This document shows, piece by piece, positions 20,220-27,647 of a stretch of DNA of 64,000 nucleotides (positions within the stretch are counted from its first letter, which is position 1; each line of letters starts with the position of its first letter). Location: positions 248,001 through 312,000 of the forward strand of contig NZ_JAGIOD010000001.1 of the NCBI RefSeq assembly GCF_017876545.1, in the 5' to 3' direction. Source of the DNA: Brachybacterium sacelli. Lineage in GTDB: Bacteria > Actinomycetota > Actinomycetes > Actinomycetales > Dermabacteraceae. Made by a program: the position numbers and the translations under genes. Under the pieces are notes generated by a model. The model was not told the origin of the DNA and made no database searches. It saw only the letters and a list, made by a program, of their open reading frames with translations.

Positions 20220-20750
20220 ATGTCGTCGATGCCCCCTCCCTATGGCGCCACTGAGCCGGCCTCCGCCTGCACGGTGACCGAGGCCCCCGAGGTCCCCACC
20301 GCGGTGGTGACGCAGCGCGACTTCCCGATGTACGAGATGTCGACCCTGATGGACGGCACGTTCTCGCACCTCGTCTCCGCCCTGGAGGAGGCGGGCATCC
20401 ACCCGATCGGCCCGGCGTTCGCCCTCCACCACCGCGCGCCGGTCTCGACCGCGGACGTCGAGGTCGGCTTCCCCGTGGATGCCCCGCTGCGCGAGCCGAT
20501 CACCCTGCCCAGCGGATACGAGGTGACCGCCTCGGTGCTGCCCGGAGGTCGGGTGGGCTGGGTCAGCCACATCGGCGGCTACGGCGGCCTGGCGGAGAGC
20601 TGGGGCGCGTTCACCGAGGACGTCGGGGAGTCCGAGGAGCAGATGACCTACCCGTTCTGGGAGTTCTACGTGACTCCACCATCGCCCGACGTGAATCCCG
20701 CGTCACTGCGCACCGACCTGTTCAGCCTGCTCGAGCCGCGCTCGGACTGA
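20220..20750 (+). CDS. GyrI-like small-molecule-binding domain protein
   Basis: A 176-residue soluble protein matching the GyrI-like / AraC effector-binding fold: PTAVVTQRDFPMYEMSTLM at the start, HHRAPVSTADVEVGFPVDAP in the middle and GGRVGWVSHIGGYGGLAESW near the ligand cleft. There is no DNA-binding domain, so it is a stand-alone binder like those that sequester drugs or cationic lipophilic compounds. It is on the same strand as the mannosidase but 132 bp behind, with a GGTGG...CCACC hairpin between, so it is probably a separate unit. The physiological ligand is unknown. Confidence 0.78.
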   Translation: MSSMPPPYGATEPASACTVTEAPEVPTAVVTQRDFPMYEMSTLMDGTFSHLVSALEEAGIHPIGPAFALHHRAPVSTADVEVGFPVDAPLREPITLPSGYEVTASVLPGGRVGWVSHIGGYGGLAESWGAFTEDVGESEEQMTYPFWEFYVTPPSPDVNPASLRTDLFSLLEPRSD

Positions 20751-20774
20751 GCGCCCTTCGCGGCAGGGCCCGAG

Positions 20775-20814
20775 CGCTCTGCGCGGCGAGGAAGGCACGC
20801 TCTGCGCGGCGAGG
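20775..20814. repeat. 17-bp direct repeat between convergent genes
   Basis: CGCTCTGCGCGGCGAGG occurs at 20775-20791 and again at 20798-20814, with a 23-bp period. It lies in the 100-bp gap between the GyrI-like gene and the phosphatase. No hairpin with a T-run is visible. Confidence 0.7.
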
Positions 20815-20850
20815 TCCGCGCACCGACAGCCATGAGATCTCGCCGACAGC

Positions 20851-21471
20851 TCAGGGTCGCAGGATGTCGGGAAACCCCGTCCAGTGCAGCTCCCGCGGCA
20901 GGTGGGACATGTCGTTGACGAGGACGACCGACGGAGGCCGCGCTGCCCGGTGCTCGATCATGGTCAGGGCGGCGTTGGCGCAGTTGAGGCCGAGCCAGCG
21001 TGCCGGCGGCGCCTCGAGGGCGTCACGGATCAACCAGGCGATCTGGAAGGCATGGGTGATGAGCACCTCGTGCGTGTCCCGATCGCCTGCTCCCGCAGCG
21101 CGCCCCGATACGGACGACGCCCCGAAGCGCCTGCTCAACCGGTGGGCGAGGTCGTGCCCGACCGCCGCCTCCTCGGCGTCGTAGCCATCGAAGAACGGGG
21201 CCCAGGCCGCTGAGAGCTCCTCGGCGGGCGGGACGTAGGGGACGTGGTCGATGAGCTCCTCCACGTCGTCGACCAGAACGGTCGGGGGCAGTTCCCGGGC
21301 GATCACCTGCGCACTCTCGACGGCGCGGGGCAGGGGCGAATGCCACACGACGTCGAGGGGCATCCGTGCGAGCCGCTCGCCCAGCAGGGCGGCCTGGGAC
21401 CTGCCGGTGTCCGTGAGCTCCCCGAGGGGATCGGCCTCGCCGTGACGGGCGAGGTAGAGATATCGGGTCAT
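20851..21471 (-). CDS. Histidine phosphatase family protein
   Basis: A 206-residue phosphatase of the phosphoglycerate-mutase-like branch. The phospho-acceptor motif is LARHGEAD (His10), with the second-site Arg in SPLPRAVESAQ and the late His in VLITHAFQIAWLI. The ATG overlaps the stop of the upstream ATP-grasp gene by 4 bp (ATGA), so the two are translationally coupled. Families of this size act on small phosphoesters or on phosphohistidine (SixA-like). The coupling to a protein carrying a phospho-His makes the second option worth testing, but sequence alone does not decide. Confidence 0.88.
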   Translation of the reverse strand: MTRYLYLARHGEADPLGELTDTGRSQAALLGERLARMPLDVVWHSPLPRAVESAQVIARELPPTVLVDDVEELIDHVPYVPPAEELSAAWAPFFDGYDAEEAAVGHDLAHRLSRRFGASSVSGRAAGAGDRDTHEVLITHAFQIAWLIRDALEAPPARWLGLNCANAALTMIEHRAARPPSVVLVNDMSHLPRELHWTGFPDILRP

Positions 21472-22739
21472 CGAGGCGTTCCTCCCGCGGTACGAGCGAT
21501 GGTTCCGGCGCTCCCGTCGAGCTCTACCCATTCTCCGTCGCGGAGGGAAGAGGTGGCTCCGGCGACTCCGAGGACGGCGGGGACGTGCTGCTCGCGGGCG
21601 ACGATGGCGGCGTGCGACAGCGCCCCACCGACCTCGGTGATGATGCCGTCGACGACGCGCAGCAGCGGCGTCCAGGCCGGATCCGTCCACGGGCACACGA
21701 GAACGTCGCCGGCACGTACCCGGGAGAAGTCCTCCGGGCCTCGGGCGATACGCACCGGGCCCGCGACCTGCCCGCGACTGCCCGGGGTGCCCCGCAGGAG
21801 GTTCGGAGGGACCGCCGGCGCATCTCTGCCCACGGAAGGCGGCTCTGCGGTGATCGGACGGGACTGGAGGATCCGGAGGTCGCCGCCGGACCGGGCCCAT
21901 TCGATGTCCTGCGGACCCCCGAGGAGCTCGGAGATCCTGTGCCCGAGACGCGCGAGCTCGACGGCCGCGTCCTCGTCTAGACACGGCGCCCGCCGCTGCT
22001 CAGCAGCGACCTCGCGAGCGACGACCCCGTTCCCCTCACGGTCGACGCGTCGATGCTTGTCGGCGACCTCGCTGGTCACGAGCCCGTTGGCAGTGACTTC
22101 GTAGGCGTCGGGCGAGACCTCGCCTCCGACGACGGCCGCTCCCAGCCCCCAGGACGCTTCGAGGCGCGTGGCACCGCCCGGCTGCGTGGGTGTGAACAGG
22201 ACCCCGGCGACCTCGGCGTCCACCAGCGGCTGGATGATCACGGCCATCGCCGAGCTTCCGAGATCACCGTCAGGACCGGCGCCGGCCGACGGGTCGAGGG
22301 CGCGAGTGGGCGCCAGCGAGGCCCAGCAGCGGTGCACCGCGGCGGCGATGCCGTCGGCCCCGCGCACTGCGAGGACGGTCTCGTACTGCCCGGCGGCGGA
22401 GGAGTCCGCCGAGTCCTCCCCGGTCGCGGAGGAGCGCACGGCGACAGGCACGTCCGCGAGCGCACCCAGGGCCTCATCGAGCGCCACGCGGAGGTCCATC
22501 GTGGGCGGCTCGGCGGTCGAATGGAGTGTTGCCGTACGGGCCACCGTCGGCAGATCGGCCGTCCGCGGCGCGATGCCCTCCGGTGATCCGCCGAGCGGCT
22601 CCTCCCCCGCGCCCCGGTGCATCGCGAACGGCACGACGAGGCCGTCGGGCACCGGCAATCCTGCGCGCAACAGGGTGCCGAGGGTCGCGGCCTTCGCCCC
22701 GCAGGTACTCCTCGTGGCGTCGCGCAGACGAACGAGCAT
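21468..22739 (-). CDS. Two-domain PEP-synthase-like protein: ATP-grasp plus swivelling phospho-His domain
   Basis: A 423-residue protein related to PEP synthase, PPDK and rifampin phosphotransferase. An N-terminal ATP-grasp domain (about 1-300) shows CGAKAATLGTLLRAGLPVP, VAVRSSATGEDSADSSAAGQ, EASWGLGAAVVGGEVSPDAY and GGPQDIEWA...LQSRPIT. A short linker leads to a C-terminal His domain (about 315-415) with GGALSHAAIVAREQHVPAVL, where His376 should be the phosphate carrier. The third domain that normally binds pyruvate/PEP or rifamycin is absent, and full-length relatives are about twice as long. The acceptor must therefore be a separate molecule or protein. It is transcribed away from two HTH genes across a shared dyad and overlaps the phosphatase gene downstream. 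Confidence 0.85.
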   Translation of the reverse strand: MLVRLRDATRSTCGAKAATLGTLLRAGLPVPDGLVVPFAMHRGAGEEPLGGSPEGIAPRTADLPTVARTATLHSTAEPPTMDLRVALDEALGALADVPVAVRSSATGEDSADSSAAGQYETVLAVRGADGIAAAVHRCWASLAPTRALDPSAGAGPDGDLGSSAMAVIIQPLVDAEVAGVLFTPTQPGGATRLEASWGLGAAVVGGEVSPDAYEVTANGLVTSEVADKHRRVDREGNGVVAREVAAEQRRAPCLDEDAAVELARLGHRISELLGGPQDIEWARSGGDLRILQSRPITAEPPSVGRDAPAVPPNLLRGTPGSRGQVAGPVRIARGPEDFSRVRAGDVLVCPWTDPAWTPLLRVVDGIITEVGGALSHAAIVAREQHVPAVLGVAGATSSLRDGEWVELDGSAGTIARTAGGTPR

Positions 22740-22747
22740 CCCGCCAC

Positions 22748-22778
22748 CTCAACTTTTTATTGACAATAATGTGTTGAG
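22748..22778. promoter_or_regulatory. 31-bp dyad operator in the divergent promoter of the ATP-grasp/HTH module
   Basis: CTCAAC at 22748-22753 mirrors GTTGAG at 22773-22778, and TATTG at 22758-22762 mirrors CAATA at 22764-22768 about a central A. Each half matches at 12 of 15 positions. TTGACA (22760-22765) sits at the centre and can serve as -35 for the + strand, with CAGGAT (22783-22788) at 17 bp as -10. The patch is strikingly AT-rich for this genome. Control by one or both HTH proteins encoded alongside is inferred. Confidence 0.65.
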
Positions 22779-22794
22779 TATGCAGGATCAGGGC

Positions 22795-23268
22795 ATGCCC
22801 CACAAGAACACGGACGGTCCGCACGGCGATCCGACCCGGCCCCGCGACGGGCGCGCCGAGGCGGGCAGCGCCCCCGACCGGATACGCAATGACCAGCCCG
22901 AGGTGCGCGGTGAGCAGCACCAGGCGCGCCGTGAGCAGGACGCGCGCGAGCACCTCCTGCACCTCGGCGGTGAGGCGCTGCCCTCTCCCCCGTGGCGTCC
23001 CCTCCGAGAGGCGACCTCGGCCGTGGATCTCGCCCAGCTCGCCCTGTGGAGATCACGCGATGCTGCACCGGAGGAGCTGCTCAGCGCTCTGACCCTGATG
23101 CCTTCGGCGCGCGCGGAGGTGGAGGGACTCGAGTCCGGCCTGTTGTTCATCGCCCGCGCCGCCGGCCTCACCTGGGCCCAGATCGCCGAGGCCATGGGCT
23201 TCAACTCGCCTCAGGCCTGCCAGCAGCACTTCACGCGGTTGAACGCCCGGCGGGACGTCGACTCGTGA
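22795..23268 (+). CDS. HTH DNA-binding protein of the ATP-grasp module
   Basis: A 157-residue protein. The first 70 residues are charged, low-complexity and probably disordered. A C-terminal helix-turn-helix is recognisable in AGLTWAQIAEAMGFNSPQAC, followed by QQHFTRL. If the promoter TTGACA-N17-CAGGAT is correct, the ATG at 22795 would be nearly at the 5' end of the message, i.e. leaderless; an ATG at 22780 is an alternative that would overlap the promoter. The next gene begins inside its stop codon (GTGA overlap). Such short HTH proteins next to PEP-utilising proteins are familiar in actinobacteria, but I cannot name a studied one. Confidence 0.7.
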   Translation: MPHKNTDGPHGDPTRPRDGRAEAGSAPDRIRNDQPEVRGEQHQARREQDAREHLLHLGGEALPSPPWRPLREATSAVDLAQLALWRSRDAAPEELLSALTLMPSARAEVEGLESGLLFIARAAGLTWAQIAEAMGFNSPQACQQHFTRLNARRDVDS

Positions 23269-23897
23269 ACTCGACCTCGTCCCTCGACCTGCTGGTGCTG
23301 CACGGCGTGCGGCTGCGCGGCTTCGCCGGGACTCGCGGGATCGCCGATCGTTTCGGTCTGGATCCCCTGGTCACTGCCGAGGTCCTGCACGACTACGAGA
23401 AGCAGGGGGCGGTCGCCTTCGCCAGCTTCGCCGATCTCGGGGGATGGTCCCTCACCACGACGGGACGCGTACACAACGAGCGGATGCTCGCCGGTGAGCT
23501 CGACGCCGTCGGCGGAACGCGGGAGCTGCACGAGGTCCACCGCGAGTTCCTGCCCTGGAATGCACGTCTGGTCCAGGCCTGCACGGACTGGCAGCTGCGT
23601 CCGGTCGACGGGGACCCTCTCGCGGTCAACGACCATTCCGAGCCGGCGCGGGACGCACGGATCCTGGAGGAGCTGACCCGGGTCGGGAACGCCCTGGCAC
23701 CGATCACGGACCGCCTGACCGCCGTCCTCGAACGCTTCGACGGGTACGACTCCCGGTACGCAGTAGCGCTGGAGCGTGCGCACGCGGGACAGACCGCCTG
23801 GGTCGATCGGAGCGACGTCGATTCGTGCCACCGGGTCTGGTTCGAGCTGCACGAGGACCTCGTCGCGACGCTCGGCATCGACCGTTCCACCGCGTGA
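23265..23897 (+). CDS. Winged-HTH-type putative regulator of the ATP-grasp module
   Basis: A 210-residue protein overlapping the preceding HTH gene by 4 bp with a GTG start. The N-terminal 70 residues look like a winged helix: GIADRFGLDPLVTAEVLHDYE as the recognition region, then GWSLTTTGRVHNERMLAGEL as the wing and following helix. The C-terminal 140 residues are helical, with conserved-looking Trp, Asp and Arg (RLVQACTDWQLRP, DSCHRVWFELHEDL), and may bind an effector or partner. There are no membrane segments. It is convergent with dnaX over 48 bp. Its pairing with the ATP-grasp/phosphatase operon suggests it senses or uses that pathway. Confidence 0.7.
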   Translation: MNSTSSLDLLVLHGVRLRGFAGTRGIADRFGLDPLVTAEVLHDYEKQGAVAFASFADLGGWSLTTTGRVHNERMLAGELDAVGGTRELHEVHREFLPWNARLVQACTDWQLRPVDGDPLAVNDHSEPARDARILEELTRVGNALAPITDRLTAVLERFDGYDSRYAVALERAHAGQTAWVDRSDVDSCHRVWFELHEDLVATLGIDRSTA

Positions 23898-23945
23898 GCG
23901 CACGCTCATGATTCCGGCTGCGCCGGGAGAGGGCCCTCGCCGCGG

Positions 23946-26900
23946 TCAGTACCTCTCGGTCTCGTCGATGACCTCGAGGACCTTGCCGCCGAGCACGGAC
24001 TCGATGATCTCGCGTCCGTTGCGCTGAGCGACTACGGCGTCCTCGTCATCCCGGGTCGCCCCACCGGTGGGGTCCACCTCCGGCGCATCCTCGGGAGTGG
24101 CGCTGCGCGCTCGCTGACCGGCAGTGCGCGAGGCCTGGGCCGCCTCACGCACCAGGGCCGCGCCGCTGCGCGCGGGGACAGAGGCCGATTCGTCCCCCGG
24201 GGCCGGGGCGATCGAGGCCGTCCCCCAGGATGCCGCAGCTCGAGAGCTGGCGGACTCCGCCGGTCCTCCGGTGTCCGTGGGTGAAGGTGGAGCGCTGTCG
24301 GCCGGTGCGGGTTGAGCGGCGGTGGCCGCGGCACCCCAGGCACCTGGGCTCTCGGCCCACGCCGTGGCGCCGGGGCTCTCGGTCGGCGCAGTGGCACTCC
24401 GGTCCTCGGTCGGCGCGGAGGTGGCCGACGGCGACATCGGGGGCGGGGAGGCCGCGTCGACGGCTGCCGACGAGGACGAGCCGACGGTGGTGGAAGTCCG
24501 TCCCGCGGGAGACGGCGACGCGGCCGATCCCGGCGTCGCGGCGGAGGAGGCCGGTCCCCACCCGGACGGTTCGGGGGCGGCATCCGAACCAGCGCCAGCG
24601 GCACGAGCAGCACCGTGGTCGGCACCGGCACCGTGGTCGGCACCGGAACCGCCATCGGCGCCGCTGGTCGCCGACGTCGTCGGGACGGTCTGCGCGGGAC
24701 GGGAGCGGATCACTCGGCCCTCGGCGATCGCCCGCTTCAGCGCCGCCTGTCCATAGGTGCGCGGTTCCTCCGGGGGCAGGGAGTCACGCCCCTCGTCGTC
24801 GACGACGGGGATCTCCCCGTCGTCCGCTCCTCCGGCGGGCGGGGCCGCGACCGGCGGGGCGACGGCTGATGCCACCTCGTCAGATCGAGCCGGCGCCGTG
24901 GCGGGAGCCGGCGCGAGCGCGTCGGACCAGCGCCCCGTGTCTGGGCCTTGGTGCACCGCCGGCGCCGGCGCACCTTGCGGCATCTCGTCGGCGCCGCCCG
25001 GCCGCGGGGCGCTCTCTGAGGGGTAGGAGTCCCGGGGGTCCGGCGGGAAGGGATCGTCCGGTTCCGGGGCGAAGTCCTCGGACCGGTCCGGACCAGATGC
25101 TGCGGGGCCGCGATTCTGCTCGGAGGCGCGGGCAGCGGCGCGCAGCGCGCGCTCGGAGGCGCGCTGGCCTGCGGACAGAGGCTGCTCCTCCTCCTGCGGG
25201 GCCGAGGTCGCCGGAGCCGGCGGCGCCTTCGGGGAGACGGCATCGCCCCACGGGACAGGCCCGGCGTCGGGGGAGGAGCTGCCGGACGGGCCGGCAGGGT
25301 CGACGGACCGCGCGTCGGTCGATGCGGAATCGGCCGACGGCGCGTCCGTCGGGCTCGTTGCCTGCTCGCCTGCGCCGTGCCCGGCGATCCCCTGACCCGC
25401 AGTGGCTTGGGGCGCCGGAGTCCGGGCGTTTCCGGGGCCGTCCTGGGCGGGCGCTCCGTCGCGGCCCTGCGGTCCGCCGTCCTGGGTTCCACCATCGTGC
25501 CGAGCACCACCCTCCGGCCAACCGGCACCCTGTGACCCCTGTGCGCCCTGGGTGCCGCCGCCGGGATGACCACCCCCACCGTGCGGTCCGCCACCCCGCT
25601 GCGGGCCGTCGTGGCGCTGTCCCCCGGGGCCGCCCGGACCGGGGCGACCGCCGCCGCCGGGGCCGGGGTCCTCGCCGACGACGGCCTCGACCGTGATGTC
25701 GGTGTGCATGATGCGGCGCACCGCATCGGCCAGGTTCTCTGCAGCAGTGCCGCGGTGGAAGGCGGAGACCAGGCCGTCGGTGCGGAACCCGATCACCAGG
25801 GTCGTCCCCTGGGCACCGTGGACGTGTCCGTTCTGGGAGATCAGCGCCCAGCTGGGGCGGCGGATCTGCGCGAGCTCGTCGAGGATCGCGGACCAGTGCG
25901 AGCGCACCTCGTCAGGATCCAGCCCGTCGGTCCCGCCGCTGGGGGCCGAGGCACCGGAAGCATCCTGCGGAGGCCGGCCCTGTTGCGGCTGCGGCTGCAC
26001 CTGCTGCTCGGCCGGCTGGTCCTGCCGGGTCGGTGGCTGGGACTGCTGCGAGTGGTTCGACGGCGACTGCGCCGCCTGCGGATCGATCGGCTGGCCCTGC
26101 CGGGACGACTGCCTCTCGCCCTGCGCCTCGGGTGCCTGCGGCTGACCCGTCGGCGGCTGGGCCTGCTGATTCTGGGGGGCCTGGGGCCGTGAGGCGTTGG
26201 TCTGCGGTGACGGCTCCTGCGCCGCCGGCCCGGGATGCTGGCCCGCATCGGCGGTGGCACCCGCACCGACTGCTCCAGCCGCTCCCGCGGGGGCCGCTGT
26301 GTCCGGCGGCTCCGGCGAGGTCGGCGCCGCGGAGGGCGCCCCGCCGGAGCGCGCCTGACGCGAGGCCTCCGCCTTCTCCTGGGCGATGCGGCGGGCCTCC
26401 TCGCGCCCACCAACACTCCCGGGCGCCCCCTGCGGAGCACCGTGAACAGGGCCGCCGCGGCCGCCCTGCCCCTCACCACCGCGGCCGCCCTGCGCCGGAG
26501 CCGGGCGTCCCCCGGTCCCGTCGGCCGGAGCGGCGAGCGCGGCTCGCTCATCTCGCAGCACCAGCCGCGCGGCCAGCAGCTCGAGGTGGAGTCTCGGCGA
26601 GGTCGCCCCGCTCATGGTGGACAGCGTCTCGTGGACGAGGTCGCCGCACTGCGAGAGGTCCGCGGGGGCGAACATCGTGGCCTGGCCGCGCATGCGCTCG
26701 AGCTCGTCGGCGGGGACCTGCGGCAGCAGATCAGCGCCGCGATCCGGCACCGCGGCCAGCACGATCAGGTCCCGCATCCGTTCCAGCAGGTCCTCGACGA
26801 AGCGGCGCGGCTCGTGCCCGGTGGCCAGCACGTGCTCGACCGCCGCGTACAGGGAGGCGGCATCCCGCTCGGCGACCGCGATGATGGCGCTGTCCAGCAG

Positions 26901-27647
26901 TGCGGTATCGGTGAAGCCGAGCAGAGCGATGGCGGTGGGGAAGTCCAGGCCGTCCTCCCCCGCCCCGGCCATGAGCTGGTCCAGCACCGACATGGAGTCG
27001 CGGGCCGAACCGCCGCCGGCACGCACCACGAGCGGCATGACGCCCTCGCCGACCTGCACACCCTCGGCCGCGCACACCTCCTCGAGGTAGGGCGCGAGCA
27101 CCTGCGGCGGGATCAGCCGGAAGGGGTAGTGGTGGGTGCGCGAGCGGATGGTGCCGATGACCTTGTCCGGCTCGGTGGTCGCGAAGACGAACTTCACGTG
27201 CTCCGGCGGCTCCTCGACGAGCTTGAGCAGAGCGTTGAAGCCTGCCGAGGTGACCATGTGGGCCTCGTCGATGATGAACACCTTGAAGCGGTCCCGCACC
27301 GGGGCGAACGAGGCGCGCTCTCGCAGCTCGCGGGCATCGTCCACACCACCGTGGCTGGCGGCGTCGATTTCCACCACGTCGAGGCTGCCGGCTCCGCCGC
27401 GCGCCAGGTCACGGCAGGAATCGCAGTGGCCGCACGGGGTGTCCGTCGGCCCCTGCTCGCAATTCAGGCAGCGCGCCAGGATCCGCGCAGAGGTGGTCTT
27501 GCCACAGCCTCGCGGGCCCGAGAACAGGTAGGCGTGGCCGACCCGTCCCGCGCGCAGCGCACGCCGCAGCGGCGTGGTGACGTGGTCCTGGCCGATCACC
27601 TCGGCGAAGGACTCGGGACGATAACGACGGTACAGAGCGGTGGCCAC
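23946..27647 (-). CDS. dnaX: DNA polymerase III subunits gamma and tau
   Basis: A 1233-residue clamp-loader ATPase. The N-terminal 370 residues are classical DnaX: Walker A FSGPRGCGKTTSA, a zinc-binding four-Cys module (CLNCEQGPTDTPCGHCDSC), Walker B IIDEAHMVT and sensor sequence FATTEPDKVIGTIRSR. Domain III follows to about residue 365. The remaining part is very long and low-complexity: Gln/Pro-rich near 430-560, a short folded-looking block (RSHWSAILDELAQIRRPSWA) near 575-660, then Gly-, Pro- and Ala-rich sequence to a conserved-looking end (GREIIESVLGGKVLEVIDE). Actinobacterial DnaX proteins usually carry long tails, but this one is at the long end. No obvious programmed frameshift slippery site was found. 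Confidence 0.95.
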   Translation of the reverse strand: MATALYRRYRPESFAEVIGQDHVTTPLRRALRAGRVGHAYLFSGPRGCGKTTSARILARCLNCEQGPTDTPCGHCDSCRDLARGGAGSLDVVEIDAASHGGVDDARELRERASFAPVRDRFKVFIIDEAHMVTSAGFNALLKLVEEPPEHVKFVFATTEPDKVIGTIRSRTHHYPFRLIPPQVLAPYLEEVCAAEGVQVGEGVMPLVVRAGGGSARDSMSVLDQLMAGAGEDGLDFPTAIALLGFTDTALLDSAIIAVAERDAASLYAAVEHVLATGHEPRRFVEDLLERMRDLIVLAAVPDRGADLLPQVPADELERMRGQATMFAPADLSQCGDLVHETLSTMSGATSPRLHLELLAARLVLRDERAALAAPADGTGGRPAPAQGGRGGEGQGGRGGPVHGAPQGAPGSVGGREEARRIAQEKAEASRQARSGGAPSAAPTSPEPPDTAAPAGAAGAVGAGATADAGQHPGPAAQEPSPQTNASRPQAPQNQQAQPPTGQPQAPEAQGERQSSRQGQPIDPQAAQSPSNHSQQSQPPTRQDQPAEQQVQPQPQQGRPPQDASGASAPSGGTDGLDPDEVRSHWSAILDELAQIRRPSWALISQNGHVHGAQGTTLVIGFRTDGLVSAFHRGTAAENLADAVRRIMHTDITVEAVVGEDPGPGGGGRPGPGGPGGQRHDGPQRGGGPHGGGGHPGGGTQGAQGSQGAGWPEGGARHDGGTQDGGPQGRDGAPAQDGPGNARTPAPQATAGQGIAGHGAGEQATSPTDAPSADSASTDARSVDPAGPSGSSSPDAGPVPWGDAVSPKAPPAPATSAPQEEEQPLSAGQRASERALRAAARASEQNRGPAASGPDRSEDFAPEPDDPFPPDPRDSYPSESAPRPGGADEMPQGAPAPAVHQGPDTGRWSDALAPAPATAPARSDEVASAVAPPVAAPPAGGADDGEIPVVDDEGRDSLPPEEPRTYGQAALKRAIAEGRVIRSRPAQTVPTTSATSGADGGSGADHGAGADHGAARAAGAGSDAAPEPSGWGPASSAATPGSAASPSPAGRTSTTVGSSSSAAVDAASPPPMSPSATSAPTEDRSATAPTESPGATAWAESPGAWGAAATAAQPAPADSAPPSPTDTGGPAESASSRAAASWGTASIAPAPGDESASVPARSGAALVREAAQASRTAGQRARSATPEDAPEVDPTGGATRDDEDAVVAQRNGREIIESVLGGKVLEVIDETERY

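Follow-up and report, generated by a model that had tools for sequence, protein, structure and literature searches.

At positions 20,851 to 23,897 of a 64,000-nucleotide stretch of the Brachybacterium sacelli genome (contig NZ_JAGIOD010000001.1, positions 248,001 to 312,000; hereafter the window) lies a compact module of four genes. On the minus strand, the gene of a 206-residue histidine phosphatase with an RHG motif (P0002; 20851..21471) is coupled to that of a 423-residue two-domain protein (P0004; 21468..22739), hereafter the kinase, in which an ATP-grasp domain is joined to a swivelling histidine domain. The plus strand carries the genes of HTH1 (P0001; 22780..23268), a small protein with a basic C-terminal helix-turn-helix (HTH), 162 residues long if the upstream ATG is its start, and of P3 (P0003; 23265..23897), a 210-residue protein with a winged helix and a four-helix domain. 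A 31-bp dyad, CTCAACTTTTTATTGACAATAATGTGTTGAG (22748..22778), separates the divergent pairs. A preliminary description, made from the letters of the DNA, had proposed these four genes and the dyad, and each was found where it had been placed. The gene contacts it described were also confirmed: the phosphatase start lies inside the kinase stop (ATGA, a 4-base overlap), indicating translational coupling, and HTH1 and P3 share 4 bases (GTGA). None of the four proteins contains the HATPase or receiver domains of classical two-component systems according to Pfam, and the PADLOC models of defence systems gave no match except P0003 against MkoB (E 2e-4, 18.8 bits).

The kinase shares its ATP-grasp domain (Pfam PPDK_N, E 5e-53), its swivel-His domain (PEP-utilizers, E 2e-24) and the catalytic His motif with phosphoenolpyruvate (PEP) synthase, pyruvate phosphate dikinase (PPDK) and rifampin phosphotransferase (RPH). 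The chain of these enzymes also includes a third domain, for binding the acceptor, whereas the 423-residue chain ends at the swivel domain and has no Pfam match to PEP-utilizers_C. His376 (codon 21612-21614), within GGALSHAAI at residues 371-379, is the swivel histidine and predicted phospho-acceptor, as had been suggested. All 16 aligned relatives keep the segment S375-H376-A377-A378-I379 unchanged, along with ATP-grasp positions including R102, E280, Q292 and R294. The best NCBIfam scores are partial matches to the PEP synthase and Rph models, far below cut-off. A protein search restricted to candidates of 0.55-1.75 times the query length scored 7,999 of them and recovered 5,392 relatives, and 120 relatives among the matches listed have the same two Pfam domains.

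In named genomes, 570 places were confirmed and the 80 best retained, so that close relatives are favoured in this set of loci. The kinase is shorter than 520 residues in 79 of the 80, two of these (L080 and L098) being cut by a contig end; the sole other locus, L115, encodes a long enzyme in an Anaerolineae metagenome-assembled genome. A tree of 44 kinases places all 22 window-type proteins in a single clade (ultrafast bootstrap, UFB, 99) and all 12 PPDK-derived types in a separate one (UFB 100). Because the short form is one clade spread over many genera, the earlier suggestion of a drug-phosphotransferase relative whose acceptor domain was lost finds no support. Genome G000 encodes three further PPDK_N proteins (L001, L002 and L004), of which L001 groups with PEP synthases in the tree and the other two are long.

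The partners of the kinase recur with it, as anticipated. HTH1 is present in 75, P3 in 77 and the phosphatase in 52 of the 80 kinase loci, and all three occur together in 50. P3 is missing from L080 and L085, both at contig ends, and from L115, while L088 holds HTH1 and P3 as fragments only. The divergent arrangement seen in the window is shared by 63 of the 75 loci with both HTH1 and P3, and three collinear arrangements account for the other 12; the two genes overlap in 63 of the 75. Gene order therefore varies while membership of the module stays. When 3,128 non-module open reading frames (ORFs) from up to 6-kb flanks of the 80 loci were clustered, no shared metabolic neighbour was found, and the recurring families were generic: 16 loci had an ABC transporter ATPase, 10 shared a dehydrogenase family, and no other family was present in more than 7.

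The dyad is, on the evidence of its sequence pattern, a conserved operator. Within the 64 kb of the window, CTCAAC-N8..20-GTTGAG has 1 match against 0.04 expected. The pattern TCAAY-N6-TTGACAA-N5..7-RTTGA lies upstream of HTH1 in 66 loci, among them the window's, out of 78 scored (L011-L013, with too little upstream sequence, were left out of this count); of the other 12 loci, 5 are without TTGACAA and 7 deviate from the operator pattern. Its position before HTH1 is kept when the gene order changes. In 12 genomes chosen as module carriers, the operator occurs once per module at up to 2 mismatches, with two sites for the two modules of G009. At this threshold no site lies beyond the module in 11 of the 12, G187 having two marginal 2-mismatch sites, and the reversed pattern used as a control had no matches in the same scan. 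P3 loci of the PPDK lineage, described below, are without HTH1, and also without the operator at up to 3 mismatches, except in L183, where one site with 3 mismatches lies about 4.3 kb from P3. The operator is absent where HTH1 is absent, and we therefore assign it to HTH1, which points to autorepression and to few or no targets elsewhere. The HTH matches of HTH1 fall below the Pfam cut-offs, its HTH is basic (mean charge +3.0 over 27 sequences), and HTH1 is very probably an operator-binding autorepressor. The winged helix of P3, on the other hand, is acidic (mean charge -4.6; recognition-helix region -2.2). Of the two regulators originally proposed, HTH1 is the one that likely binds the operator, and P3 is not. 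As the operator is nearly private to the module, it argues that the output would not be a transcriptional regulon. At L196:5137-5165, an intact operator stands beside a sub-threshold remnant of P3, perhaps a decaying module.

P3 itself was first described as a second HTH regulator. Neither Pfam nor NCBIfam matches it at E 0.1, and the AlphaFold2 model (mean predicted local distance difference test, pLDDT, 95) comprises a MarR-like winged helix at residues 1-84 and a helical domain of four helices at 85-210. Conserved residues are N99, W109, Q110, Y161, S187, H189, W192, H196 and R207; H189, W192 and H196 are near-invariant, and the strongest conservation falls in the C-terminal domain. Databases name P3 relatives transcriptional regulators or MarR-family regulators, yet the MarR models of Pfam do not match P0003 and only 1 of 31 relatives matches MarR_2 (E 0.058). 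No sequence relatives of P3 were found in the PDB beyond weak winged-helix matches, and its C-terminal domain had no Foldseek match at E 0.001, the list being headed by SHEP1, talin and designed bundles. Extra in-frame TGA codons in P3 matches were discarded as a feature of the family, the terminal stop having been read past in those inspected.

Relatives of P3 occur in 55 of 296 genomes of the class (E <= 1e-6), and a PPDK/PEP-synthase-type gene lies within 3 kb of P3 in 53 of 62 analysed loci, where chance would give about 1% (an estimate that assumes a few such genes in every 5 Mb). These comprise 9 of 9 window-type loci (L118-L126, the window itself being L125) and 44 of 53 further P3 regions, 41 of the 44 having the gene within 150 bases. 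Fifty-four further regions had been fetched, and P3 was scorable in 53, L196 being dropped for want of a P3 match above threshold. By the distance rule, L182, whose weak match of 37 bits lies at 1,914 nt, and L199, which matches in the swivel only with 60 bits, count as near; the kinase profile was trained on eight loci later scored (L148, L161, L165, L168, L170, L174, L176 and L186), whose kinases had been checked by Pfam and NCBIfam. At L199:5689-6036, on the minus strand, a 141-residue frame adjoining P3 appears to be a lone swivel domain.

Neighbours of other architectures also occur, and in 16 of the PPDK-type ones we checked by Pfam whether they are two-domain or full-length. Seven of those tested resemble VadK of Mycobacterium tuberculosis, discussed below: they are two-domain proteins of PPDK descent, with ATP-grasp and swivel domains and no PEP-binding domain, and six of them score 470-913 bits against NF004531 (cut-off 456), L165 falling below at 343. 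A third group of eight loci (L179, L180, L183, L185, L186, L188, L191 and L194) encodes full-length PPDK-like proteins adjoining P3 that keep the swivel and PEP-binding domains and have no recognisable PPDK_N/ATP-grasp; seven of them come from one Pfam test of eight neighbours, the remaining one being L192 (below), and L186 comes from another. In L180, aligned to a solved PPDK, the PEP-site motifs are kept and the ATP-grasp motifs are lost. It is possible that these proteins are PEP-only phosphohistidine donors made from PPDK. A further 833-residue frame, L192:2905-5403 on the plus strand, combines PPDK_N and swivel domains without PEP-utilizers_C. The neighbours of P3, their architectures and the clades of the tree therefore place the same P3 partner with two kinase lineages. 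As far as the domain matches tell, these enzymes are missing one end, that for ATP or that for PEP, and the swivel His and P3 are retained.

The RHG active site of the phosphatase, already recognised, is borne out by a His_Phos_1 match (E 1.3e-20) and an ARHGE motif. Across the 296 genomes, its profile gave 15 matches of at least 287.9 bits, the remainder scoring 212.5 or less. Fourteen of the 15 lie beside a kinase/P3 pair, 11 in window-type modules and 3 with PPDK-derived kinases (G177, G226 and G279), so that the same phosphatase subfamily accompanies both kinase lineages; the fifteenth, in G064, is about 60 kb from its P3. A partial phosphatase in G167 (210.8 bits) is also adjacent. SixA, which acts on phosphohistidine of phosphotransferase and phosphocarrier proteins according to the available text of two reports (PMC7948535, PMC6282199), has the histidine-phosphatase fold and RHG motif in common with the module phosphatase, but the latter scores 22.8 bits against the SixA model (cut-off 74.5) and belongs to another subfamily.

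According to the preliminary description, no system of exactly this composition had been described, a statement now qualified by VadK (Rv1127c) and its 'operonic partner' Rv1126c, published in 2025-2026. In the accessible portions of that work (PMC13400623, PMC12636432), VadK is a two-domain, PPDK-derived kinase of M. tuberculosis that autophosphorylates His422 with ATP and Mg2+ and pulls down enzymes of the methylcitrate cycle; its authors propose direct control of methylcitrate synthase and observed no transcriptional regulation of the cycle, and the role of the partner gene is left open. Co-expression with Rv1126c improved the solubility of VadK, and a wash in 2 M NaCl served to separate the two (both in the available part of PMC13400623). 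VadK and the 423-residue kinase are alike in having ATP-grasp and swivel-His domains, no PEP/pyruvate domain and an adjacent small partner gene. They differ in descent, the former being PPDK-derived and the latter on the PEP-synthase/RPH side of the tree (49.2 bits against NF004531, cut-off 456), and the VadK system also differs in the phosphatase, HTH1 and own operator that the module possesses.

A P3 relative adjoins the VadK-type gene (842 and 913 bits against NF004531) in genomes that are probably Mycobacterium, and is 201 residues long in L170. Relatives of this protein are present in 176 of 396 genomes, probably Mycobacterium (E <= 1e-20); a published rv1127c primer had no match in these 396. 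Position and the length of 201 residues, which we take to be that of Rv1126c as well, make it a strong inference that Rv1126c is a P3 protein, and VadK appears to belong to the separate P3-accompanied kinase lineage. Other dikinases are divided between two polypeptides, such as the two-component small-molecule dikinases HpeHI, CreHI and PpsAB in the available text of PMC12167813. The HpeHI type, as far as that text goes, splits the ATP-grasp domain from the swivel and substrate domains, whereas the module keeps ATP-grasp and swivel on one chain. In our literature searches, the kinase-P3 pairing was nowhere described as a family, the accessible text of the VadK papers mentioning one operonic pair.

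Taken together, the module can be read as an autoregulated, self-contained phosphotransfer cassette, a reading to which we give about even weight. By analogy with VadK and PEP synthase, the kinase would bind ATP in its ATP-grasp domain and phosphorylate its own His376 on the swivel. P3 would form a complex with it and take over in trans the role of the acceptor-binding third domain found in the three-domain relatives, receiving the phosphoryl group from the swivel domain or presenting something that does; the likeliest acceptor on P3 itself would be H189 or H196 of the four-helix domain. The RHG phosphatase, presumably co-transcribed, would take the phosphoryl group off again. HTH1 on the 31-bp operator would repress both divergent transcripts, and P3, from the same transcript, may release or assist HTH1 according to phosphorylation or ligand state. 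The preliminary description had offered a phosphohistidine relay as one of its readings, and its logic of an external acceptor and its proposed partnership have stood, through the co-occurrence of the genes, the association of the P3 family with a second kinase lineage and that of the phosphatase subfamily with some of its members. That the kinase and P3 work together is very probable; that P3 accepts the phosphoryl group itself, and is not just a regulator or a subunit presenting a substrate, has in our estimation slightly less than an even chance. Six loci with no PPDK/PEP-synthase-type gene in reach of P3 (L159, L164, L166, L190, L197 and L198) and several fusions weigh against a strict one-to-one link between the two. 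Swivel and P3 are fused, a point in favour of the cassette reading, in frames of about 800 residues at L195:3048-5432 and L189:3117-5525, both on the plus strand and 44% identical, in which an N-terminal swivel domain (confirmed by Pfam in L195 only) and about 450 residues of unassigned type precede a C-terminal P3; H189, W192 and H196 are kept in them, and W109 and Q110 are lost. At L177:4989-7133, on the minus strand, an acyl-CoA ligase (AMP-binding and AMP-binding_C) is fused to P3.

This last fusion hints at a small-molecule link, and leads to the rival in which P3 is the substrate-binding subunit of a dikinase acting in trans, presenting a small molecule as does the third domain of rifampin phosphotransferase or HpeH, with the product, a phosphorylated metabolite, hydrolysed by the phosphatase. 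P3 stands where the third domain is missing and has a conserved set of polar residues, two-component dikinases exist (in the portion of PMC12167813 available), and the module-restricted operator suggests a non-transcriptional output. A kinase and a phosphatase for one small molecule in one operon would nevertheless be futile, no metabolic family is common to more than 16 of the 80 loci, and HpeHI, in the same text, is split elsewhere in the chain; we hold this alternative to be rather unlikely. Less likely still is a reading in which P3 regulates the kinase operon as a ligand-responsive, DNA-binding protein of the MarR type and receives no phosphoryl group from the kinase; the kinase would then act on a protein from another locus, as has been proposed for VadK with the methylcitrate cycle. 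The winged-helix fold of P3, the database labels and the enzymes pulled down by VadK (available text of PMC13400623, PMC12636432) agree with it, but the conservation centred on the C-terminal domain, the acidic recognition-helix region, the PPDK-lineage loci without HTH1 or operator and the fusion of P3 to a swivel domain in two proteins make it improbable. Finally, it is hardly credible that the 423-residue protein arose by decay of a PEP synthase or drug phosphotransferase that lost its acceptor domain: its NCBIfam matches are partial, but it is no truncated remnant, given the invariant SHAAI motif and ATP-grasp residues, the 5,392 homologues among length-limited candidates, the conserved partners and operator, and related loci that, in 79 of 80 cases, are equally short rather than carriers of a third domain.

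The cassette is scattered across actinobacteria, and 7 of 38 Brachybacterium genomes encode a window-type kinase. In these seven and in three more genomes of the genus, ten in all, dnaX is a neighbour of a GyrI-like gene, both names being presumed from recognising the sequences rather than from a family search. Three of the ten have the module between the two genes, and there 5,560-5,953 bases separate the end of the GyrI-like gene from the dnaX match; in the other seven, four of which have the module elsewhere, the gap is 2,396-3,276 bases. This site, occupied in 3 of 10 genomes, corresponds to positions 20750-23946 of the window, the module being about 3 kb; judged from the occupied and empty sites, the module is a putative movable cassette. 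The dnaX-like gene (23946-27647, minus strand) encodes 1,233 residues in total, with a very long tail rich in Ala, Pro, Gly and Gln.

Actinobacterial genomes encode numerous short dikinases, many of which carry names of PEP/pyruvate enzymes even though they are without the substrate domain. A single partner family marks those of two lineages, the VadK type included, and is a candidate for the missing acceptor; the cassette itself is small, with nearly one target site per genome. The presence of P3 across the two lineages suggests a general and little-noticed way to pass phosphate. We tentatively propose, while holding it more doubtful than the cassette itself, a separate phosphotransfer family in which swivel-His proteins that are ATP-only (those of the module and of the VadK type) or PEP-only (the PPDKs with a dead ATP site) would all charge P3, with a phosphatase reset in many. 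If true, this family would fall outside both the two-component systems and the phosphotransferase system (PTS); metabolic dikinases would have given rise to it at least two times, and the partner gene of VadK, so far unexplained, would be one of its members.

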